Source: a virus
DNA: 42,510 nt
Direction: 5' to 3' (one strand)
IMG/VR virus record: IMGVR_UViG_3300003937_000377
Location: 1-42,510 of that record
Below are positions 7,001 through 24,011 of the stretch, piece by piece. The translations under genes and the position numbers were made by a program. The notes below the pieces were generated by a model. The model searched no databases. It was given only the letters and a program-made list of their open reading frames with translations, and was not told the origin of the DNA. Within the stretch, counting starts at the first letter, position 1. Each line of letters begins with the position of its first letter.

Positions 7001-9956
7001 CGCCGTAGGTCGCCGCCAAAACCGCGCGGTCCAGCTTCAGGCCCTGCAGCTGCTCGGGTACCGGCTCGCCGCCGGCTTCCTTTCGGCCAGTCAGCACGCG
7101 GTAGGCACGCACGATCGGCGTGGCCTCGACCTCGGCCTCGACCTCGCTGCGGATGGTGGCCAGCTCGTCCTTCCACCAGCGTTCGCGTGCCCGTGCATCC
7201 GCTTCCTGCAGCTGGGCCATCAGGTCGGCCTCGGCCTGCTCGCGCGCCGCAGCAACCTGCGCCTGGTAGTCGGCGAACTGCCGCTCGGTCATGCCCAGCG
7301 CCTGTGCTTCGGCCAGGTCGCGCGCGATCGGCTCGAAACCGACCCGGGCCTGTGCCGCCTCGATCTCTTCCTGGCTGGCCAGCATGCGGTCGAACACACC
7401 GCGCACCTCGTCGGTCAGCTCCACGTCCAGATTCCGCAGGCTGCGGTAAACGCCGAGAATCCACTGCTTGAACTGGCTGAACACCGATTGCAGCTCCGGC
7501 GTCGGCGCCTTGCCCTCGCCCAGGTACGCCTCGAAGCCCCGGGCGAACTGTTCGTGCTGGTCGACGCCGATCTGGTCCGCCGACTCGACGCCGAACCACT
7601 TCAGCAGGGCGTCCAGGTCTGAGCGGATCTGCGGCGCGGCGTCCTCTGCCGTGGCTAGGTCGCGGTAGACCTCGAGGAAGAAGTGCCCGGATTCGTGCAG
7701 GAACGTGGACAGGTCCGCGCCCTTGAACAGGCTGATCTGCATCGCTCGGTCAGTGCCGATCTGGATCTGGCCGCGCGGGGCGGCACCGCCTTGGAACAGG
7801 ATATCGCCCGCCAGCACCTCACGCGCGGCGGTATCCGGCAGCGCCACGCTCCAGGTCTGCCGCTGCCCTTCGATCGGATCGTCCTGCACGATCTCGCCGC
7901 CGGTGCGCTCGGCTTCGGTGCGCGCCTGATCCAGGGTCAGGAAGTCGCGGGCCTGGCCCTGATCGTCGGCCAGCAGCCACTGGCCTGCGCGCTGCACATA
8001 GGCGTTGCCTTCGCGCTCGATGGTCTGCTGCCCTCGGCCATCGGTGGTCACTTCCGGCCGGCCGAACAGGCTGCGCAGTGCGTCCATGCCGCGCTGCATC
8101 AGCGTGCGCGGCTGTGCCTCGCCGCCCTCTGCCGGTGCCTCCGCTGCATCGATTCCGGCCGCGTAGCGCTCGTACAGCGCCACTGGATCCTGCCCAGTGA
8201 CCTCACCCAGCCGGCCGAACATGGCGCCCCACAGCTGCGCCTGGCTCTCGGCCTGCGCCGCGGTGTAACGCTCAGTGCCGACCAGCTGCGCCATGACCGA
8301 CTGCTGCACATGTGCGCGGGCGGTCGCCGCGGTCGCGTCCGGTGCAGGTGCATCCAGCGGCACACCCAGCTCGCGGGCCATGGCATCGATGTCGAGCGTT
8401 TCCAGCTCTGCCGGCGACAGCCCGTCGGCAGTGGTGCGCGCGTTGCGCAGGATCTCGTCACGGTTCGGTAGCCGCGGCACGGCGGCCATCCACTCCGCCA
8501 TTGGGATAACCACCTGGCCGGTGGCCAGCTGCTCCGCCAACGCCGACTCACCGCCGACCATGTCCTGCAGCACCTGCGGTGCGGACTGGAACAGCGTCTG
8601 CGCCTGGTCAGCGTCCAAGTACACGCGCGCGTCTTCGCCGGCAACCTGCGCCGTCAGCGCCTTCATGTCCTCCGGCGAGCGCTCGCCCAGCTTCAGCTCT
8701 CCCGCAAGCTCGGTGGCGGCGCGCAGGCGGTCGTTGCTCTGGCCCGACTGCATCACCTGGTCCAGACGCTCGTTGATCCACCGCACCTGCCCGGACGCGC
8801 GCGCGGCACGGTAGTTGGCATGCACTTCGACCGCGCCGGTGGGGACCTCGGCCAGGCCCTCCATGATGATGTCGCCCCACTTCAGGCGTTCCTCGGTCAG
8901 CAGCTGCGCCGTGGTCTCGCCAGCAGCGCCGCCACCCAGCTGCACGCCAGCCTCGGCACCCGTGCGAAGAATGGCCGAGGATGCGCTGCGGCGGGCGTTG
9001 TTGATGAAGTGGCCAGCCACGCCGGCAGTCAGCGCGTCGAACACGCCGATGGCAACGCCGCGCTTGGCGGCCTTGTCGCGCGCGGCCGCCATCTTCTGCG
9101 GGTCACGCAGGAACTGGCCAACCGCGTAGGCGTCGGTCGGGTCGACCTTCGCGTCCTGCATGGCGTCGGCGATGCTGGCGCCGAACTCGGTCAGGCCCGA
9201 GCCGGTGCCGGCCGAGGCAGCGGTCACCACACGGCTGCCGCCGCCGGTGGCCGCGGTCAGTGCCAGGCCCGGTGCGCCCATGCCGATCGACTGCCCCAGG
9301 GTGACGGCGATGGCGCCCAGCGTGTCAGTGCCGCCGCCGGCCAGCTCTCGCACAGCACCGGTGAAGCTGCCCGCCTTGTTCGCCCGGTCGAAGGCCTGGA
9401 ACCCGCGTTCGGTGCTGGCGCTGGTCACGTCCGCGGCCTGTGCCCGGCGTTCCTGGTCTGCGCGCAACGCGGCTTCTTCGGCCGAACGGTCAGTGGTCAG
9501 CCGGCCGGTCGCCGGATCCATGACCGCAGGGCCATCCGGCAGCAGCGAGAGCGCATTGGCCTTGCCGCGCTGCCAGCCGCTGACGATGCCGCCGATGACC
9601 TGCTCCAGGATGTTCGGCTCGGCAGTGGCACGGGCCTCACCGGTCACCAGCGAATTGGCATAGGTGGCCAGCTTCGGGGCTTCATCACTGGCCAGTGCCA
9701 TGCGCCGCGGATCGCTCAGGAAGTCGCCCACGTGCGGCGATGCCCGGCCGGCGTCGTCGATCTCCTGCCGCCGGGCGTCCTGCTCGTAGTCGGCAAGGTT
9801 GGCCGCCACCACACCGAAGGGCTGACCAAGCTGGTCCGACAGCTGGTTCGCACGCGCGGCTTCTTCCGGCTTCTGGCTGGTGCCGGTGTAGGCGGCACGC
9901 AGGGCAGTCTTGCGCTCGACCTCCACCTCGTCCCAAACGGTGTCCCAGTCCTTCAT
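4062..9956 (-). CDS. Giant virion (ejection) protein with zincin-like and LPD38-like regions
   Basis: At 1964 residues this is the largest gene, at the place of T7 gp16 (internal virion protein D). A metallopeptidase-like motif HESGH lies at residues 754-758, followed by an HEQFARGFEAYL helix that could give the third zinc ligand. Long Ala/Glu-rich helices fill residues about 880-1150. The C-terminal 130 residues (MLKEGAFGMLGTIPG..., ending with a helix around TIDLIQAEREG) resemble the LPD38 domain of large polyvalent phage proteins. These proteins are carried in the capsid and enter the host with the DNA. Composition changes near 6490: the 3' part is visibly poorer in G+C than the 5' part, suggesting a mosaic gene. 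The start overlaps the upstream stop (ATGA). Proteolytic activity is inferred only. Confidence 0.85.
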   Translation of the reverse strand: MKDWDTVWDEVEVERKTALRAAYTGTSQKPEEAARANQLSDQLGQPFGVVAANLADYEQDARRQEIDDAGRASPHVGDFLSDPRRMALASDEAPKLATYANSLVTGEARATAEPNILEQVIGGIVSGWQRGKANALSLLPDGPAVMDPATGRLTTDRSAEEAALRADQERRAQAADVTSASTERGFQAFDRANKAGSFTGAVRELAGGGTDTLGAIAVTLGQSIGMGAPGLALTAATGGGSRVVTAASAGTGSGLTEFGASIADAMQDAKVDPTDAYAVGQFLRDPQKMAAARDKAAKRGVAIGVFDALTAGVAGHFINNARRSASSAILRTGAEAGVQLGGGAAGETTAQLLTEERLKWGDIIMEGLAEVPTGAVEVHANYRAARASGQVRWINERLDQVMQSGQSNDRLRAATELAGELKLGERSPEDMKALTAQVAGEDARVYLDADQAQTLFQSAPQVLQDMVGGESALAEQLATGQVVIPMAEWMAAVPRLPNRDEILRNARTTADGLSPAELETLDIDAMARELGVPLDAPAPDATAATARAHVQQSVMAQLVGTERYTAAQAESQAQLWGAMFGRLGEVTGQDPVALYERYAAGIDAAEAPAEGGEAQPRTLMQRGMDALRSLFGRPEVTTDGRGQQTIEREGNAYVQRAGQWLLADDQGQARDFLTLDQARTEAERTGGEIVQDDPIEGQRQTWSVALPDTAAREVLAGDILFQGGAAPRGQIQIGTDRAMQISLFKGADLSTFLHESGHFFLEVYRDLATAEDAAPQIRSDLDALLKWFGVESADQIGVDQHEQFARGFEAYLGEGKAPTPELQSVFSQFKQWILGVYRSLRNLDVELTDEVRGVFDRMLASQEEIEAAQARVGFEPIARDLAEAQALGMTERQFADYQAQVAAAREQAEADLMAQLQEADARARERWWKDELATIRSEVEAEVEATPIVRAYRVLTGRKEAGGEPVPEQLQGLKLDRAVLAATYGDGLLDKMGRVYARKGGTHPEEVATLLGFSSADELVQGLWTVRQTLAGVSAEADARMQARHGEPMTDGTLPQRALDAVHGSRKIQLLERELGVLADLAKEPRPNRRELKAVAQAVLAEKTARQIRPNEYLVAERKAARAAAKAAAAGKYADALQAKRQQALNAVLFAEARNAQEEFGRIERYLKQMTGDKARSKLGKAGADYLEQVDALLEGLEVKPISGAQVRRRQSLAEWVDAQHAARKAINVPQRLLEEMRLTNISDMSIADLRDIVDTVKQIAHLANTKNTLRLGKEERDAGKIDAEMAASVRSGSRERNATTGIPSIGDRAFGGLMQFRAIQGAATDIARELDGFTDGGPVWDNTVRVLRDAQAQTDLKLREAQEALADLYRTHYSREELSRMARARPMESVNGDLWSHERLLALAMNWGNEGNRQAILTQVRGRLSAQQVGTLLGQLDARDWAFVQRAWNMIDSYWPQIAETERRRTGLSPEKVERSAFTVTTRDGSTIVVQGGYYPLKFQSDSVRTVREEAEDYFNAIGVGANLRAQTRDGHTIERVGSGGRTVRLELNVLDTHLRDVIRDLYLGDGVNYVHSVLNGQKFSEALADTGMLELRKALDYWLQDAAAGEMAPRMWAEQAARFFRSNFTAAVLTWRVSSAMLQLTGVSQSTVILGAKPMWQALQNMLRHPRKSYQYVDESSTKMRLRAQTHADAVQEVMDAKAGRIAAGRAAAIRWGYAMMGQVQRIVDVQTWLAAEQVGLEKFGGDTSKARAYADDVVTRAQGSQDFVDKTPLQRGTLNDSTRQSEWVKSTTMLAGYMLAKGNLIYERTRTTNFRSPRQALKWGTHMFMLLVLENLITAALRGKLPNDEDDDGIADDLAVWMLKEGAFGMLGTIPGLNQLSANLRGYDGGGAIATMFSTIYDAYEQAGQGELDRAAVRVGIDLTGQATGIPSTQINKTIDLIQAEREGRDVSALNWAMQEPPKKE

Positions 9957-15368: not shown

Positions 15369-16540
15369 CACTGCACCTCCTGCGCGACATTGCCGCCGCG
15401 GCCGATGCCGCCACCACTGGTGCCGCCGGTGCCACTGCCACCGGGGTAGTACGGATTCGACTGCACCGGCACGCCGTCGATCTTGACCTGGTAGTCCAGG
15501 TAGCTGCTGCTGGTGGCACCGGGGATGGCGAACTGTTTCGTGGTGCCGTCGCCGTTGAAGGTCCAGGGACCGGCTACCGGCGGCGGCACGTTGCCGACGA
15601 TGCTATCGGGGATCCGCTCGATCACCGTGGCGGTGACCTCGAAGGGGCTGGTGAACGCGGTGATCTTCATGATCCCGAACCCACCGTGCACGTATTCCCA
15701 CTCGACGCCGACAGCGTAGTCGTTGACATTGTCGAACTTCACGTCCTGCGGACCGTCGAACGAGCGGCCACTGTCGTGCACCGGGCGCACGCTGCCGCAG
15801 ACGTAGTACGGCGTGCCGGCCAGGCCGGTCAGCACGGGTATGCTCACGCAGCGGTAGACCTTCTGGTCGCTTCGGCGGAGCGCTCCCAGCGGCACCTTCT
15901 TCTCCGCCGCCACCCAGGGCTTCACCGAGCGCAGTTCCTTTTCCTCGGCATACAGCAGCGAGCCGACCATTTCCGCGGTGAAGGTCGGGACGTTGGTCGT
16001 CACCGTCACCACGCCCTGGGTGCCAGACACGGCCAGCAGGGCGGCCTCGTCATTGTTGAACGGGCGGAAAGGGCCGCGTCGGAATTCGAAGTCGCGCAGC
16101 TCGAACTGGTCGACGGCCAGACGGCGCAGCTCTTTCTGCGGGATCCACGGGTGCACCAGGAACAGCACATCCGCCGACTGCGTGTGCCGCACCTTGTAGA
16201 TGTCCTCCCCGGTATAGGGCGTGGCCACCTCAACGATGTCCCCTGCCCCATTGCGCAGCAGCGCACCACCCACCCAGAAACGCATGTAGCCGTCGCCCAG
16301 CTCGATCGCGTACTTGACCGTTGTCGAGTAGATGAACGGGATGAAGCGGGTGGCGCGGTCGTTGTGCTTGGCACCGCCGCGGAACAGGTAGCCCGGCCGC
16401 TTCTCCCCGCCGCCGGTCGGCTTGGTGATGACGTTCAGACACCGCTTCAGGCTGATGGCGTACCGCACCATGTCGACGCGGCCCTGGAGCCCGGGCGAAA
16501 GCTCGCCGCCGGACATGCTCGGTTGCAGCAGACGTGCCAT
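15368..16540 (-). CDS. Tail tubular protein B, N-terminal part (gp12-like)
   Basis: The product has 390 residues. The start (LLQPSMSGGELSPGL, then RYAISLKRCLNVITKPTGGGEKRPG) is the classic beginning of gp12-type tail tubular proteins, followed by TRFIPFIYSTTVKYAIELG and SADVLFLVHPWIPQKELRRL. It ends in a Gly-rich tail (residues about 366-385) before a stop that overlaps the start of the next gene. In T7 and many relatives one gene of about 800 residues covers both parts. The split is clean, with a strong ribosome site, so it looks functional and not like a random frameshift. Confidence 0.82.
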   Translation of the reverse strand: MARLLQPSMSGGELSPGLQGRVDMVRYAISLKRCLNVITKPTGGGEKRPGYLFRGGAKHNDRATRFIPFIYSTTVKYAIELGDGYMRFWVGGALLRNGAGDIVEVATPYTGEDIYKVRHTQSADVLFLVHPWIPQKELRRLAVDQFELRDFEFRRGPFRPFNNDEAALLAVSGTQGVVTVTTNVPTFTAEMVGSLLYAEEKELRSVKPWVAAEKKVPLGALRRSDQKVYRCVSIPVLTGLAGTPYYVCGSVRPVHDSGRSFDGPQDVKFDNVNDYAVGVEWEYVHGGFGIMKITAFTSPFEVTATVIERIPDSIVGNVPPPVAGPWTFNGDGTTKQFAIPGATSSSYLDYQVKIDGVPVQSNPYYPGGSGTGGTSGGGIGRGGNVAQEVQ

Positions 16541-17769: not shown

Positions 17770-18762
17770 TTACGCGACGGCGCCTTCATCCCAGGCGAGC
17801 GCGTCGCTGACGCGGATCGGGATGCCACGGAAGGTGTTCACCGGCTGACCGTTCAGTTCGGTTTGCTTCAGCGCCAGGATGCGGCGGTTGTTGGCCTGGA
17901 TGTCCAGCCACTCGTAAATGTCGCGGTTGACGTAGATCACCGTGTTCAAGCTCTCCAGGCGCTCGATGCGGTGCGTCGCCTTGATCAGCTCGTTGATCAG
18001 CACCAGCTCGGTGTTCGGCTCGGGATCGACCTTCAGATTGCTGACCTTGATGTTCGCCACGCGGGCGATGCAACGCGGGTCCTCAACCGCCAGGCCGGCC
18101 TGCAGCGCAAACCAGTCGCGGTAGGCCGGGTACTTGCCGCCGTTGCCATCGTCGACCAGTTCGTCGCCGTAGTCGGTGTGCTGGATGCCGGCCTTGGTGC
18201 CCTTGGCGTAGATGCCATACACCGAGTCATCGCCCCAGCCAACGACCCAGATCGAGGTCAGATTGCTGCCAGTGCCCGACAGCTTGATGATCTGGCGCGA
18301 CAGGTCGCCGGTGGCGTCGGCGTAGCGCTCCTTCAGGCCCACGAATCCGGCCGACTGGATCTTGGAGCCGTTGAAGAACTGCGACTCGAAGCTCTGGCCG
18401 ATCGCCTCGATGTGGCGGCCGTTCTTCTTCACGCGGAAGTCGGAGACGTTGGTCGACAGCTCAGCCAGCACCTTGTCGACCTGGCCCAGCGACGCGAACT
18501 CGGCAGTGGCTTCGGTGATGTCGGCGGCCTTGCCGGTCGACGGCTTCACGCCAGCGTTGAGCTTGCGCAGAACGGCCTCGGGCAGCTGCGTTTCCACGCC
18601 GATGCGGTGACCGTTCGTGGTGTTGGCTTCAACCCACGGGATGTCCTGGAAGACCGGCTTGCGCTTGGTCAGGATCTCCGCGATCGGCAGCGGCTTGCCG
18701 TCCTGGGTGTAGCGGGTGGAGATGTCGGTGATGTTCGGAACATCACGGGTCAGAGTTGCCAT
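17770..18762 (-). CDS. Major capsid protein, BPP-1 type
   Basis: The product has 330 residues. The pattern DISTRYTQDGKPLPIAEILTKRKPVFQDIPW and the later GIPIRVSDAL near the C-terminus fit the BPP-1-like major capsid family, which has a permuted HK97-like fold. Scaffold and cement genes flank it. Hairpins bracket the gene on both sides, which could raise its relative expression or stabilise its message. Confidence 0.88.
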   Translation of the reverse strand: MATLTRDVPNITDISTRYTQDGKPLPIAEILTKRKPVFQDIPWVEANTTNGHRIGVETQLPEAVLRKLNAGVKPSTGKAADITEATAEFASLGQVDKVLAELSTNVSDFRVKKNGRHIEAIGQSFESQFFNGSKIQSAGFVGLKERYADATGDLSRQIIKLSGTGSNLTSIWVVGWGDDSVYGIYAKGTKAGIQHTDYGDELVDDGNGGKYPAYRDWFALQAGLAVEDPRCIARVANIKVSNLKVDPEPNTELVLINELIKATHRIERLESLNTVIYVNRDIYEWLDIQANNRRILALKQTELNGQPVNTFRGIPIRVSDALAWDEGAVA

Positions 18763-18782
18763 TGTTCAGTCCTCTGGATACG

Positions 18783-18803
18783 AAAAAGCCGCCAATCGGC
18801 GGC
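18783..18803 (-). terminator. Rho-independent-like terminator between scaffold and capsid genes
   Basis: GCCGCC-AATC-GGCGGC forms a 6-bp stem, and on the minus strand it is followed by TTTTT. It lies about 20 bases before the capsid start, so capsid expression must rely on read-through, antitermination or its own promoter. Confidence 0.7.
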
Positions 18804-18827
18804 CGTGGGATGGGTTGTTGTGTTGGC

Positions 18828-19541
18828 TCAGTCGCGCTGGCGTGCGGCCGGGCGGTCGGCGTACTGGTACATGCGGTCACCGGTGCTCTGCGTGCCACTG
18901 GTGGTGGTACCGCCCAGACCGTCCACCTTGCTGTCGCGAAGGAACTCGCCGAAGAAGGCGAATGCCTTGATCATGGTCGGGTGGTTGCCCCAGCCCAGTT
19001 CGTTGAACGCCTTGGTCAGCTCGGGGTCGTTGATGGCCTTCACCGCGGTGGTGGCCAGGCCGACGGCTTCGTCGTACTTGGCGCCCAACTGCTGCTTGGC
19101 ATCCGCGCCCCACTGCTCCAGCTGCTGCAGGCGCTGAGCCTCCACGGCTTGGTGCAGTGCCGCCGCGTCCTGCCCGGCCATCTGGGTATACAGGTCTACG
19201 GCCTCCTGGGCCTGTTCCTGCGTCCAACCCTTGGCCTTGAAGAACTCGGTGGCCTGCCCGAGGCGGTCGCCTTCGAGAGTGAATCCCTCCGGCACCTTGA
19301 ACGCCTCGTATTGCTCCGGTGCGCCATCGCTGGTGTCGCCCTTGGACTTGCCGGCCTCGCCGCCTTCGTCCTTGGTGTCCGTGCTGGTGGTGCCCTTCGC
19401 ATCACCTCCGTTCCCCGTACCCTCGGTTGCCGGCTGGCCACTGCCGCCGGTGCCCTGCTGTTCCGTGGTGCTGGTGGTGGTCTTGCCCTCGCCTTCGCCA
19501 GAATTTTGGGTGCTGGTCTCGGTGGCGGTTTCAGTCGACAT
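18828..19541 (-). CDS. Capsid scaffolding/assembly protein
   Basis: The product has 237 residues. The first 75 residues are a low-complexity Thr/Gly/Glu-rich disordered region. A helical region follows (GRLGQATEFFKAKGW-like, QEAVDLYTQ, coiled coil LEQWGADAKQQLGAKYDEAV), then a short basic tail. This layout, directly upstream of the major capsid gene, fits a phage scaffold. The GTG at 19547 is possible, but the ATG at 19541 is 8 bases from AGGA and is preferred. The start overlaps the end of the upstream gene. Confidence 0.78.
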   Translation of the reverse strand: MSTETATETSTQNSGEGEGKTTTSTTEQQGTGGSGQPATEGTGNGGDAKGTTSTDTKDEGGEAGKSKGDTSDGAPEQYEAFKVPEGFTLEGDRLGQATEFFKAKGWTQEQAQEAVDLYTQMAGQDAAALHQAVEAQRLQQLEQWGADAKQQLGAKYDEAVGLATTAVKAINDPELTKAFNELGWGNHPTMIKAFAFFGEFLRDSKVDGLGGTTTSGTQSTGDRMYQYADRPAARQRD

Positions 19542-19890
19542 GTTCACTTTCCTCGGGTTGCTGCAGCTGCGACTGCAGCCGCTTCAGTGCACTGTTGGCC
19601 TCGGCGCGCATTTGAGCTTCGCGCTCCGGGCAGTTGTCACGGATTGCCAGCAGCCACCACAGGGCGGCCTCCTGCCGGCCGATGGCGCGGGACTGGGCCA
19701 TCGCATTGGTGTTGAAGGCGCTGGCGTCCACGCCCATTGCCTGCAGGAACGCCCAGACCACACGTCGGCCTACGGGCTCCGACAGTACGCTGCGGATGTC
19801 CTCACGCAGCTGGCGAAGCTCCAGCACGGCCAGATGTCGCTCGCGTCGCTCCTGGTCGATGTCCTCCGGGCTGCGACCCGGCCGGCTCAT
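19531..19890 (-). CDS. Bbp19-like phage protein
   Basis: The product has 119 residues. The core GRRVVWAFLQAMGVDASAF, then GRQEAALWWLLAI, matches the Bbp19-type domain that occurs near the portal gene in BPP-1-like phages. Function is not established; position between portal and scaffold suggests a head-assembly role. It overlaps the portal gene stop (ATGA). Confidence 0.75.
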   Translation of the reverse strand: MSRPGRSPEDIDQERRERHLAVLELRQLREDIRSVLSEPVGRRVVWAFLQAMGVDASAFNTNAMAQSRAIGRQEAALWWLLAIRDNCPEREAQMRAEANSALKRLQSQLQQPEESEHVD

Positions 19891-21599
19891 GCTGCACCCT
19901 GCATGGCGTCAATCAGCGCCTGGGCCGCCGAGCCTTCCTCGGGCACCGTATCGCTGGCAGTCTTCAGTGCTTGGGTTGCATCCTTCAGCGGCTGCGCGGC
20001 CGCCGCGAGCTGCTGCTGACGCTGCTGCTGGGCGCGATCGGCACGAATACTGGCCACTGCGTCGTCGCTGCGGATGATCGAAGCCGGACCACCGACCGCA
20101 GTGGTGTATTCGTCGACTACCTGGTCCGCGTCCAGCTTGTCCATCACTGAGGGATCGCCGGTTGCCTGGGCGACGCCGGCAACGAACTGCACCGTGCGCT
20201 CGATAGAGCCGACTGCTGCGGCCTTGGCCGCCTGCGCCAGGATGCTGGTGTACTCGATCTTCAGAGGCAGGTCCGCCAGCACCTGCGGTGGGTCCGGGAT
20301 GCGGCCGGCGCGTTCGAGAAGGCGGAACACGCGGACGATCACCGGGTCGAGAACTTCGTCCGTGATCGACTCCAGCGTGGGCGCCAGCACGGCAGCCTTC
20401 TCTTCCTTGCGGGTGGCGATCTCGGTGGCCGTGCGGTCCGTCTTGTCGCCCAGCGCTTCCAGCATCAGGAAGAGCTGATAGAAGAAGGCCCGCTCGATGC
20501 GGGCCTCGATGGTGGCGATCTCTTCGCGGATCTGCTGCAACGCCCTGGCATCGGGCGTGTAGACCGGCGCAACGGTGGCGTTGACCGAGTCCTGCGGCAG
20601 GTAAACCATGCCGCCCTTCCGCAGGCGCGCGCCTCCGGACCGCTTCAGCGATTCCGGACCCCCGAGTGTGGGATCGGAGAGTTGCTCCATCAGACGCAGC
20701 TTTTCGCCTTCCAGATACTGCAGCTGCTTGATGTCACCCAAGCAGTCGACCGCAGGGCTGGTGGAGTAGACGTCCTCCGCCACAGGGTTCCAGCGAGCCA
20801 CCACGAAAGGCGCTTCGTAGTGCCCGCCGATGTCCAGAATCCCGTGATCGGCGGCGCCCACACCATCGATCCAGACTACCTCGCGGTAGGGTCGGAACTG
20901 CGGCGCCTGCAGCCCCAGTGGCCCGATACCGGGGCGCTCGTTGGGATTCGGCTCGATCAGCGACTCCACGATGAACTCGCGATCGCCATTGTTGGCCAGG
21001 CAGTCCCGAACGGTTCTCGGCAGCCGGTCTGCACCGTAGCGCTGCTCCAGCTGCCGGGCGGTCTTGGTGTACCGGCGCCACAGCGAGTCGACACGCTGCT
21101 GGTCGTCCAGCCCCACCGCATAGGTTCCTGCGGTCAGCGAGTAGAACCGAACCACCTCGCGCGGATCTTCGAGGATCAGCATTGGCGCAGTGCCGAACAG
21201 CCCGTCCTCCGTGTAGACGACCGGCATGGCCTTGTAGAAGTTGCTGCTGGCCAAGGCGTCGCGGATGCGCTGCGCTACGTCGTCCAGCCATACCCGAACG
21301 CCAAACTGCTCAGACAGCGACGGGTCCGGCGTCTTGACCAGGAACCATGGCTGAGCCTTCGGCGTCATGTGGGACATCATGCCGGCCGACATCGTGCGCA
21401 GGACCTCGGTGGCGGTGCTGTTGATCACCTTGGCCCGGTTGCGCTTCCTGGGCTTCGTGTCGGTCTCGCCATAGAAACGGCCGCGGGTCGGGTCCACGTA
21501 CTCCGACACCTGGCGCCAGTCGGTGTTCCAGTCCGTCTGGTTGTCCTTCATGGCCTTCTTGCGGCGCCGGCAGTGCGCGCGCAGCTCCATCATGTCCAT
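19887..21599 (-). CDS. Portal (head-tail connector) protein
   Basis: The product has 570 residues. It shows the T7-type connector hallmarks: WRQVSEYVDPTRGRF near residue 28, INSTATEVLRTMSAGMMSHMTPKAQPWF, then EDGLFGTAPMLIL and YSLTAGTYAVGLDDQ. The C-terminal 70 residues are Gln/Ala-rich coiled coil. A ring of twelve copies would sit at the capsid vertex and serve DNA entry and exit. Upstream, where the large terminase gene would be expected, only small genes are found. Confidence 0.9.
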   Translation of the reverse strand: MDMMELRAHCRRRKKAMKDNQTDWNTDWRQVSEYVDPTRGRFYGETDTKPRKRNRAKVINSTATEVLRTMSAGMMSHMTPKAQPWFLVKTPDPSLSEQFGVRVWLDDVAQRIRDALASSNFYKAMPVVYTEDGLFGTAPMLILEDPREVVRFYSLTAGTYAVGLDDQQRVDSLWRRYTKTARQLEQRYGADRLPRTVRDCLANNGDREFIVESLIEPNPNERPGIGPLGLQAPQFRPYREVVWIDGVGAADHGILDIGGHYEAPFVVARWNPVAEDVYSTSPAVDCLGDIKQLQYLEGEKLRLMEQLSDPTLGGPESLKRSGGARLRKGGMVYLPQDSVNATVAPVYTPDARALQQIREEIATIEARIERAFFYQLFLMLEALGDKTDRTATEIATRKEEKAAVLAPTLESITDEVLDPVIVRVFRLLERAGRIPDPPQVLADLPLKIEYTSILAQAAKAAAVGSIERTVQFVAGVAQATGDPSVMDKLDADQVVDEYTTAVGGPASIIRSDDAVASIRADRAQQQRQQQLAAAAQPLKDATQALKTASDTVPEEGSAAQALIDAMQGAA

Positions 21600-21862
21600 C
21601 AGCCTCCCCCCAGCACGGTATTGCGCGGAGCTGTTCCACCCAGCGCGGTTGTGGTCGGTGCCAGCGATCGATAGGCCACAGAGGACGCGCCGCTGCTGGC
21701 GTAGGTGCGGCGCTCGTCCTCGGCTTCCTTGCGAGCGCGGCGCACGCGGCCAGTGGGATCACCCACGGCGGTCTTGGTGACGCCGAGCGGGTCGGCGTAC
21801 TTGCCGGTCTTGTCGCCGAACAGCAGGCCACCTGGATCGATGATCTGGCGCGAGGTGCACAT
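21599..21862 (-). CDS. Small phage protein upstream of portal, unknown function
   Basis: The product has 87 residues. The frame extends upstream, but the ATG at 21862 gives MCTSRQIIDPGGLLFGDKTG and lies just after the previous gene's stop. Its end (TALGGTAPRNTVLGGG) is similar in pattern to the end of the neighbouring protein encoded at 21867-22070. The stop overlaps the portal start (TGATG). It is probably a minor virion protein, by position only. Confidence 0.62.
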   Translation of the reverse strand: MCTSRQIIDPGGLLFGDKTGKYADPLGVTKTAVGDPTGRVRRARKEAEDERRTYASSGASSVAYRSLAPTTTALGGTAPRNTVLGGG

Positions 21863-21866
21863 GACG

Positions 21867-22070
21867 TCAGGCACCCAGTGCCGTCTTGACCGACGCAGTC
21901 GGCATCGCCGAGCTGGTGTCACCGGCCAGGATCGTCGACCTGGCGCCGAAGCGCAGGCGCTGCCGCTGGCGTTCGCGGTCACGCTCATTCACGGCGGCAT
22001 CGTCGATCGACTCGGGCGCCACTTCGGGCGCTGCGGCCACCGGCTTCACCTTGGGGGCGGAGTTGCACAT
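21867..22070 (-). CDS. Small phage protein (MCNSAP type), unknown function
   Basis: The product has 67 residues: MCNSAPKVKP, a Pro/Ala-rich linker, a basic helix (NERDRERQRQRLRF) and GARSTILAG. AAGGA lies 6 bases before the ATG at 22070. Similar short proteins occur beside the portal gene in podoviruses and may be minor head components, though I cannot name a function. Confidence 0.6.
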   Translation of the reverse strand: MCNSAPKVKPVAAAPEVAPESIDDAAVNERDRERQRQRLRFGARSTILAGDTSSAMPTASVKTALGA

Positions 22071-22080
22071 GGGGATTCCT

Positions 22081-22395
22081 TCAGGACAACGGGTTGTAGG
22101 GCTCACCGGCCTGCTGGTCGGCGTGGTCGCGATGCTCCATCGGCGACCCATCGGGGACGGTCGCGGCCGCAGTGCGGTCTTCTTCATGATTCGCTCCAAT
22201 GGTGGCCAGTGCCTCGGCCTGGGCGTGCTCGGTGGCGCGGGCCCCGTTGACCTGTGCCACCTGGGCGGCGCTAGCACTGGCCTGCTGCCGGGCCTCGTTG
22301 CCCTCAGCGCGATCACCGCGCCACACCCAGCCAGCAGCAAAGCCCATCAGGCCAACCACCGGCAGCGCGATCAGCAGGGCGCGGGTGAGGATCAT
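22081..22395 (-). CDS. Rz-like inner-membrane spanin candidate
   Basis: The product has 104 residues. An N-terminal membrane segment (about residues 5-24) is followed by a hydrophilic Ala/Gln/Glu-rich helix (EARQQASASAAQVAQVNGARA) and a polar tail. With the lysozyme and holin genes close upstream, this fits an i-spanin that links the membranes during lysis. It is shorter than lambda Rz (153 residues). No convincing lipoprotein partner was found. Confidence 0.55.
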   Translation of the reverse strand: MILTRALLIALPVVGLMGFAAGWVWRGDRAEGNEARQQASASAAQVAQVNGARATEHAQAEALATIGANHEEDRTAAATVPDGSPMEHRDHADQQAGEPYNPLS

Positions 22396-22399
22396 GGGG

Positions 22400-22645
22400 T
22401 TAGAAGCTCGTCGGCTTGGCCACGGCGCGGGTAAGCGCCATCAGGCCGGTCTGGAAGTCCGTCTTGGCGATGGCCGACCAACGGTAGCAATCGCCCTTGT
22501 CGCCCTCGATCGCAGTGTTGGTGTCGTTGACCTTGTTGACCAGGGCCTGCAGCTCCTCACCCTTCGCCTTGATCTCGTTCATCAGGTCGATCTCGGCCTG
22601 GCTCAGTTCGCGGTAGCCGGTGATCTTGCGGTGCTGGTTTTCCAT
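22400..22645 (-). CDS. acb2: Acb2-like cyclic-oligonucleotide sponge (predicted anti-CBASS protein)
   Basis: The product has 81 residues and starts HRKITGYRELSQAEIDLMNEIK, with a helical hairpin and the end TDFQTGLMALTRAVAKP. This is the pattern of the Acb2/Tad1-type hairpin family. Acb2 of Pseudomonas phage PaMx33 forms hexamers that trap cyclic di- and trinucleotides, blocking CBASS effectors. The two residues reported as essential there, Tyr11 and Lys26, fall at the same numbers in this protein (Y11 and K26). AGGAGG lies 5 bases before the ATG. It sits between lysozyme and spanin genes, so it is made with the late genes unless it has its own promoter, and it might also arrive too late to act early. 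Confidence 0.82.
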   Translation of the reverse strand: MENQHRKITGYRELSQAEIDLMNEIKAKGEELQALVNKVNDTNTAIEGDKGDCYRWSAIAKTDFQTGLMALTRAVAKPTSF

Positions 22646-22660
22646 GACGCCCTCCTGGGA

Positions 22661-23125
22661 TCAGTTGGTGGATTCACACATGCGGCGCTCAGCCGCGCGA
22701 CGGTTCACAAGGCCCTGAACACGCTTGCCGCCGGCGTACACCCAGCGATCCAGCTCCGGGCACCAGCTCGCGGCGGGCTGGCCGGCGTTGATGCGGCCCA
22801 CCAGGGTCGAGCGGCAGGCAGCGCCCACGCCCACGTTGTAGGTCCAGCTCAGCACCGCGGCCCACTCGCGTTCGCGCAGCGGCACCTTGATGCACTGGCT
22901 GATGCCGGTCAGGTAGCTGCCCAGGCGGCTGTTGAGCTTCTCGGCGCACTCCTGCTCGGTGTAGACCGCCTTGTCCGGGCGGCTGGTGTCGCCGTAGCAG
23001 TAGGTGGCGACGCCCACCATGTCGATGTACGGCGTGGGCGAGTAGCCCTCCCACGGCTTCACCAGCGCGGCGGCGGCCAGGGCGATAACGGCCGCGGCGC
23101 TGCCGCCGATCACCTTGCCCTTCAT
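22661..23125 (-). CDS. SAR-type endolysin, glycoside hydrolase 24 lysozyme
   Basis: The product has 154 residues. A weakly hydrophobic Gly/Ala-rich N-terminal segment (residues about 5-22) looks like a signal-anchor-release sequence, so export could use the Sec path without a holin-sized hole. The catalytic triad E26-x8-D35-x5-T41 of the T4/P21 lysozyme family is complete. Cys43 and later cysteines could control activity by disulfide exchange. The ATG at 23125 overlaps the holin stop (ATGA). It cuts the glycan strands of peptidoglycan at lysis. Confidence 0.88.
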   Translation of the reverse strand: MKGKVIGGSAAAVIALAAAALVKPWEGYSPTPYIDMVGVATYCYGDTSRPDKAVYTEQECAEKLNSRLGSYLTGISQCIKVPLREREWAAVLSWTYNVGVGAACRSTLVGRINAGQPAASWCPELDRWVYAGGKRVQGLVNRRAAERRMCESTN

Positions 23126-23361
23126 CCGATCACCCCGCCGCGGCGCGCCTGGCGCCATTCGCGGATCCACTTCCACACCAGGTAGCCGATCTGGCCCACC
23201 AGGTAGATGGCCGTCAGCACCAGCACCGCCTTGTCCAGGGTGAACCCCGATGCGACGGCCGTGGCCACCGTTACCGGCGGCGTGACCTTCAGGGCTGCGG
23301 TCCCCACCGCGTCAATGATTTCTCCCCGCATGTCGGTTCCATGGTTGATCCGGTTCGGCAT
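23122..23361 (-). CDS. Holin
   Basis: The product has 79 residues. A hydrophobic region at about 27-41 and a clear membrane helix at about 44-65 are followed by a positively charged tail (WKWIREWRQARR), the usual holin layout. It immediately precedes and overlaps the lysozyme gene. With a SAR endolysin it may act as a pinholin. A GGGGAGG-like site lies just before the ATG. Confidence 0.75.
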   Translation of the reverse strand: MPNRINHGTDMRGEIIDAVGTAALKVTPPVTVATAVASGFTLDKAVLVLTAIYLVGQIGYLVWKWIREWRQARRGGVIG

Positions 23362-23932: not shown

Positions 23933-24011
23933 TGGTTGCGGGGGCCGGATTCGAACCGGCGAATCTCCGGGTTATGAGCCCGGCAGCCTGGACCTCTGGC
24001 CTACGCCCGCA
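23933..24011 (-). tRNA. Prophage tRNA with CAT anticodon (tRNA-Met or tRNA-Ile2-like)
   Basis: On the minus strand a cloverleaf is visible: anticodon stem CCGGG/CCCGG with loop CTCATAA, T arm GCCGG-TTCGAAT-CCGGC, acceptor 3' strand CCCCGCA, discriminator A and an encoded CCA. Acceptor pairs 1-6 match; the seventh is a C-C mismatch and the D-arm spacing is slightly irregular. The CAT anticodon can mean methionine or, if modified, isoleucine (AUA). It lies just after the late promoter, so it is transcribed first in the late transcript. Confidence 0.75.

Follow-up and report, generated by a model that had tools for sequence, protein, structure and literature searches.

A predicted Acb2-family cyclic-oligonucleotide sponge between the lysozyme and Rz genes of a probable Stenotrophomonas prophage

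Introduction

The gene at positions 22400-22645 of the window (the whole virus record of 42,510 bases, hereafter the record) very probably encodes an Acb2-family sponge directed against CBASS, carried as a single-gene cassette between the lysozyme and Rz genes in the late block of a temperate Stenotrophomonas phage. As judged from sequence comparisons, the 81-residue product appears to be a sound further member of the Acb2 family, and its function can be assigned with high confidence. In closely related prophages the same junction is often empty, or is filled by a gene of the Acb4 family, which likewise comprises phage sponges for CBASS signals. By homology, the protein would form a hexamer able to bind cyclic dinucleotides between its protomers and cyclic trinucleotides in a central channel, and the capture of the signal would keep CBASS effectors, such as NucC or phospholipases, inactive.

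The acb2 gene and its surroundings

Besides acb2, the record carries genes for an integrase, a RecE-like exonuclease, a DnaB-like helicase, a CII-like activator, a connector, a major head protein and tail proteins; integrase, head and tail genes in a virus record indicate a phage or prophage origin of acb2. The features of the lysis-head block, all on the minus strand, are the following.

23122..23361, minus strand: holin (phrog_920, 2.9e-18; PF10746, 0.00077, below its cut-off)
22661..23176, minus strand: lysozyme/endolysin, immediately upstream of acb2 (PF00959, 1.2e-35; phrog_7, 2.9e-45)
22649..22656, minus strand: Shine-Dalgarno-like AGGAGGGC ahead of the acb2 ATG (read from the sequence)
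22400..22645, minus strand: acb2, predicted 81-aa Acb2-family cyclic-oligonucleotide sponge (PF24729; phrog_717; PDB 8h2j; AlphaFold2 model compared with 8h2j and 7uq2)
22081..22395, minus strand: truncated Rz i-spanin ending in the C-terminus of a large terminase (phrog_2466, 5e-11; comparison with L007)
21599..21988, minus strand: 129-aa ORF of unknown function between Rz and portal, conserved in L006, L007 and L009
19887..21599, minus strand: head-tail connector/portal (PF12236, 4.8e-126; phrog_332, 5.5e-141)
18828..19547, minus strand: ORF downstream of acb2 labelled protease by PHROGs, putative (phrog_458, 5.2e-43)
17770..18762, minus strand: major head protein, downstream of acb2 (phrog_212, 4.2e-63)

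The acb2 ORF starts with an ATG at 22645 and stops at 22400; an earlier note on this DNA had described the 81-residue frame at these positions without giving its strand, and the frame is as described. AGGAGG lies directly 5' of the ATG, and the gene is real, not a chance frame. The minus-strand order is holin, lysozyme, acb2, Rz, the 129-aa ORF, portal, a 119-aa ORF, the PHROGs-labelled protease and the major head protein, with gaps of only 15 nt between acb2 and the lysozyme gene and 4 nt between acb2 and the Rz-like gene. The neighbours thus agree with the placement between lysozyme and spanin first described, except that the “spanin” consists of a shortened Rz with the end of a large terminase attached (see below). 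The 129-aa ORF has no PHROG match, and its sole Pfam match is weak and below the cut-off. A tRNA-Met gene (CAT) is present at 23933-24011 on the minus strand, upstream of an HNH gene and the lysis cassette.

A portal protein 99% identical to that of the record was found in G079, one of 91 genomes from the genus of G001; the set includes G002 and G003, with the Stenotrophomonas loci L088 and L092. Given a near-identical portal in that genus, the host is very likely a Stenotrophomonas.

Family, fold and conserved residues

The main evidence for the family assignment is the sequence match. The Pfam model of the Acb2/Tad1 hairpin, PF24729, recognises the 81-aa protein at 8.4e-17, with 61.6 bits far above its cut-off of 27, and the only other Pfam match, DUF6847, remains below its cut-off (19.5 bits, cut-off 27). 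The PHROG match is phrog_717 (3.7e-22), and a phmmer comparison with the solved Acb2 8h2j covers the full length (E 9.2e-19); the 93-residue sequence of 8h2j corresponds, compared by eye, to PaMx33 ORF24 translated from L002. PF13876, the Acb4 family, is absent both from the protein and from the entire record. The family is already known and large, with relatives in 225 of 50,697 phage records by tblastn (223 of which cover at least 80% of the protein), and the 81-aa protein is an ordinary member of it.

The fold agrees with this assignment. The AlphaFold2 single-chain model (mean pLDDT 89.5) consists of a short N-terminal helix and a long helical hairpin (H4-7, H16-45 and H53-76), which is the hairpin pattern that had been noticed earlier in the sequence. 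Its top solved match by Foldseek is 8h2j (E 4.4e-05, TM 0.79 by query length), which also ranks first by Z (9.6 over 80 residues). Structure alignments with the Acb2 proteins of Pseudomonas phages PaMx33 and PaP2 (8h2j, 8h2x, 8ixz) are full-length and give 42-49% identity. Next among the solved folds ranked by Foldseek, after 8h2j and 8h2x, comes Acb2 (Vs.4, 7uq2) of the virulent myovirus T4 (E 0.047), which aligns at Z 9.5 over 77 residues with 25% identity. Since helical bundles can reach about Z 13 through arrangement alone, the fold is taken as supporting evidence.

Tyr11 and Lys26, which are reportedly essential for cyclic-dinucleotide binding by PaMx33 Acb2, stand at the same numbers in the solved 93-aa protein, in register, as had been claimed from the sequence, and the C-terminal Phe also aligns with 8h2j. 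Conservation was followed in an alignment of the record's protein with 78 loci thinned by hand (A3), from which 30 representatives were omitted, including L143, whose frame lacks Tyr11; the counts were redone on all 151 loci plus the record's protein and on all representatives (L033 has no complete acb2 ORF). Lys26 is invariant (152/152), followed by Tyr11 (147), Arg55 (143), Trp56 (141) and the terminal Phe (134). After thinning at 90% identity to 109 proteins, the same residues are found in 109 (Lys26), 106 (Tyr11), 100 (Arg55), 99 (Trp56) and 91 (Phe). With the family match, the predicted fold and these residues all in agreement, the Acb2 identity proposed in the earlier note holds. For the T4 protein, the available part of PMC12657218 describes disrupted binding in the Y8A mutant and stacking of Phe82 against the ligand.

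Two other sponge families differ from the record's protein. Tad1 has in common with it the sponge mode of action and the name of the Pfam hairpin model, but its N-terminal antiparallel beta-sheet (PMC12043709, available part) has no counterpart in the model of the 81-aa protein, which is all helical, with no strands and hence no Tad1-type N-terminal beta domain. Acb4 (PF13876, 9e4w) belongs to a different, unrelated family and assembles as a tetramer (according to excerpts of PMC11722364).

Relative to PaMx33 and PaP2, with which Tyr11, Lys26 and the terminal Phe are shared, the hairpin tip of the record's protein lacks 12 residues, so that Lys26 and Arg55 are 28 residues apart versus 40 in PaMx33. 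The short tip, together with the different ligand ranges of homologues (PMC12043709, available part), might suggest a protein whose ligand range has moved off the CBASS signals, towards a nucleotide of another defence or of the host, or one that has kept the fold and lost binding. Such a shift is improbable. Across 79 aligned proteins the same spacing varies from 20 to 64 residues, and the short tip is therefore ordinary; Tyr11, Lys26, Arg55, Trp56 and the terminal Phe are all kept; and a known CBASS-sponge family fills the same slot in two sister phages (see below). The gene is, moreover, kept by purifying selection, as its low dN/dS indicates: 0 to 0.11 against copies 98-100% identical in protein, and 0.35-0.36 against L011 and L012 (74-75% identical). 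An Acb2 that still captures CBASS signals is thus the preferred reading of the protein.

The lysozyme-Rz junction in sister phages

Of 80 fetched loci with a related lysozyme, three (L201, L234 and L235) yielded no lysozyme ORF, and 16 (L157-L172) encode a lysozyme 91-99% identical to that of the record. The lysozyme-Rz junction of these 16 is empty in 10, where Rz begins at or within the end of the lysozyme gene (L166 being scored empty from coordinates), and holds acb2 in three, an Acb4-family gene (PF13876) in two and a 41-aa ORF in one; a sponge is thus found in five of the six occupied junctions. The three acb2 loci (L162, L167 and L171, which are the records of L009, L007 and L006) are arranged exactly as in the record. 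In L157 (4329-4700; the contig stops before Rz is complete) and L163 (4541-4906), a gene of 124 or 122 aa follows a similar ribosome-binding stretch, and its product matches PF13876 at 3.7e-30 and 2.4e-29, respectively, and the solved Acb4 9e4w weakly (E 0.0046). PF13876 is the family of SPO1 Acb4, and 3'3'-cGAMP was bound by all eight homologues tested, as reported in the available text of PMC11722364. When whole records were searched (the record and those of L157-L200, 45 of 81), Acb2 occurred in four and Acb4 in two, never both and always at this junction. Three Stenotrophomonas prophages whose portal is 99, 88 or 83% identical to that of the record likewise have an empty junction.

The position of acb2 within the lysis cassette could also be read as that of a lysis-timing protein, antiholin-like or a partner of the spanin, merely resembling Acb2, and the lysozyme C-terminus does differ between acb2 sisters (...MCESTN or ...MCESAN) and the empty ones compared (mostly ...MCEGRS). 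This role is extremely improbable, as acb2 is missing from 10 of the 16 sister lysis cassettes, many relatives, PaMx33 included, lie outside lysis cassettes, and the Acb2 match far above its cut-off is accompanied by no Pfam or PHROGs match to holin, spanin or endolysin families at E up to 1; the model, too, predicts a soluble helical hairpin.

With the sponge reading retained, the alternation of two unrelated sponges at one junction provides genetic evidence for function that is independent of the fold. The acb2 copies resemble one another closely and could derive from a single insertion, as could the two acb4 copies, so that the five junctions with a sponge do not count as five independent events.

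Further ORFs at or near the lysozyme-Rz junction are one of 41 aa in L159 (4516-4638), one of 134 aa in L206 (4618-5019), one of 60 aa in L205 (4727-4906) and one of 88 aa in L213 (4441-4704), none of which matches a Pfam family at E 0.01 or below; they are candidates for further counter-signalling genes. The L213 ORF, between lysozyme and Rz, resembles by eye an ORF of L275 (3403-3660) located between acb4 and Rz; both, of 85-88 aa and of unknown function, contain MTPEQF.YW.

Probable exchange of the gene and generality of the position

A different Stenotrophomonas prophage (L086; also L008 and L010) carries an acb2 98-99% identical in protein, again directly upstream of Rz, in a setting with a distant lysozyme (E 2e-16 to that of the record) and, by eye, other terminase genes after Rz. 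When 17-27 kb of the record was compared with the fetched loci, the DNA similarity to this prophage was limited to 22372-22647 (91.3%), that is, to the gene. Together with the alternation of acb2, acb4 and empty junctions, this gene-only similarity makes the junction look like a site of the late block at which sponge genes are exchanged, and into which acb2 would have been inserted as a single-gene cassette. Among 32 loci sharing the L086-type Rz, acb2 precedes Rz in three (L243, L254 and L255). As to acb4, it ends 3 nt before Rz in L299, L305 and L334; the first two are mutually related (Acb4 98%, Rz 79% identical) and L334 differs from both (Acb4 67%, Rz 59-62%).

A topology-based detector of Rz/Rz1 pairs, which recovered 50 of 55 known pairs with no extra calls, was applied to non-redundant loci obtained by clustering at 90% identity (acb2, 108 representatives of 152, 101 of them with enough flank; acb4, 71 representatives of 80, 66 with flank). 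An Rz/Rz1 pair adjoins acb2 in 6 of 101 loci (two downstream, four upstream) where 0.27 are expected (Poisson 4e-7), and acb4 in 6 of 66 (three and three) where 0.43 are expected (Poisson tail 6e-6); both tails are too small and exaggerate the significance, because the model assumes uniform positions. The HNH gene, taken as a control for Rz adjacency, provided only three loci, all within records of the lysozyme set. The order seen in the record, with the sponge just upstream of Rz, is found in only part of the Rz-adjacent loci, and no recognised Rz lies beside acb2 in 95 of 101 loci or beside acb4 in 60 of 66. The lysis position of acb2 is a recurrent minority, not the rule. In PaMx33, acb2 closes a series of genes that includes DNA polymerase, primase and a MazG-like gene, whereas the structural and lysis genes of that phage are encoded on the other strand.

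Accordingly diverse are the neighbours of acb2 classified with PHROGs and Pfam (98 upstream, 87 downstream). Among the PHROG families listed (25 of 152 upstream and 25 of 175 downstream), Rz-like spanin families have 5, 4, 4, 2 and 2 members upstream and 2, 2 and 2 downstream; as their members may overlap, this corresponds to at least 5 of 98 upstream and at least 2 of 87 downstream neighbours. One of the 98 upstream neighbours matches Acb1, a family of CBASS-signal nucleases. An HU-like DNA-binding gene is found upstream of acb2 in 8 of 98 loci. In L103 (Acinetobacter gerneri), Acb2 occurs together with a weak Acb4 match (1.7e-05), at 8001-8303 and 15604-15921. Within the Stenotrophomonas genus set, PF24729 is present in 3 of 91 genomes; the same 91 genomes hold four PF13876 genes, and near the three of these that were examined no Rz or lysozyme was recognised.

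These data bear on whether the junction upstream of Rz in temperate phages is a dedicated late slot for counter-signalling genes, in which Acb2 and Acb4 interchange and the antidote would be made from the transcript of the structural proteins that help to trigger CBASS, and before them; on this broader proposal we regard the balance as about even. A neutral landing site, open to any small gene and hosting two kinds of CBASS sponge by coincidence, is possible and rather doubtful. It would account for the other ORFs at or near the junction (L159, L206, L205 and L213), for the few independent events, given the close relatedness of the acb2 copies (L006, L007, L009 and the record) and of the acb4 copies (L157 and L163), for the PF13876 genes of the genus with no recognised Rz or lysozyme nearby, and for the majority of acb2 and acb4 loci that do not adjoin a recognised Rz. 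It fits less well with a sponge in five of six occupied junctions among the closest loci, and with Rz adjacency above expectation for both genes, the significance of which the uniform-position model exaggerates. Among the literature matches listed for Acb2, anti-CBASS or Acb4 together with the lysis cassette, PMC10367356, which contains anti-CBASS and lysis terms, is in its available part unrelated; the slot may already have been reported.

A probable deletion next to acb2

Relative to its sister L007, 2,327 bp are missing from the record; the junction, near 22153-22158, shows by eye an overlap of 4 bases. The resulting fused ORF (22081-22395) joins residues 1-74 of the L007 Rz in frame with residues 475-499, the last 25, of TerL. 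On one side of the junction (18730-22169) identity to L007 is 99.9%, on the other 96.4%. A tblastn search of the record revealed no small terminase of the L007 type and no other piece of that large terminase; intact copies are present in relatives. By comparison with L007, therefore, only a minor part of Rz and the very end of the large terminase are left, and the small terminase is gone. The virus as recorded is probably defective and may no longer produce phage; alternatively, the record was misassembled.

CBASS and related defences of the host

SMODS cyclases were found in 10 of the 91 genomes of the genus. The two CBASS-type loci examined (L155, 842-3158; L154, 614-2013) consist of HORMA, cyclase and NucC in one and of a cyclase with a 2TM effector in the other. 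None of the three Stenotrophomonas genomes with an acb2 prophage contains SMODS, so that no argument from co-occurrence in the host is possible. Acb2 binds cA3 and blocks NucC (PMC12043709, available part), which fits a HORMA-NucC target; a link between the record's protein and a particular host system would be speculative. Acb2 also triggers the Panoptes defence, as described in the available parts of PMC12657218 and PMC12657230; such a cost may be the reason for the many empty junctions.

Timing of expression

From the gene order, acb2 would probably be translated from the late lysis-head transcript, before the head genes. A separate promoter, proposed in the earlier note, finds no support, because a scan of 19-26 kb for sigma70-like promoters, which does not cover phage-specific ones, detected none (0.6 expected), and only 15 nt precede acb2. 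Nor did any observation favour delivery with the virion, the other possibility raised there. The concern that late expression would come too late is weaker than originally stated: the head genes follow acb2 on one strand, and late expression could still meet the CBASS signal. Head proteins of other phages have been linked to CBASS activation or escape. In the available portions of the respective sources, PMC12409349 describes an interaction between a prohead protease and a CBASS sensor, and PMC10419184 the escape from CBASS of phages mutated in the capsid gene. Acb2 is also described, in the accessible text of PMC12043709, as acting in prophage induction and not in lysogeny. Two reports speak against this view of the timing: the capsid gene in its wild-type form did not by itself provoke CBASS toxicity (PMC10419184), and in T4 the effect of Acb1 on Panoptes is smaller than that of Acb2, which is ascribed to the later expression of Acb1 (PMC12657230, available part).

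Implications

Anti-CBASS sponges, assigned as such by family, are now placed in prophages of Stenotrophomonas, a genus with HORMA-NucC and 2TM-type CBASS loci. More than the protein itself, the part most worth following is the alternation of Acb2 and Acb4 in one slot of the lysis cassette. As this slot belongs to the lysis-head block, it bears on when CBASS signals must be neutralised, and the lysozyme-Rz junction is a place to look for further counter-defence genes; if the slot is indeed a dedicated one, the small genes of unknown function found there would be candidate new anti-signalling proteins.
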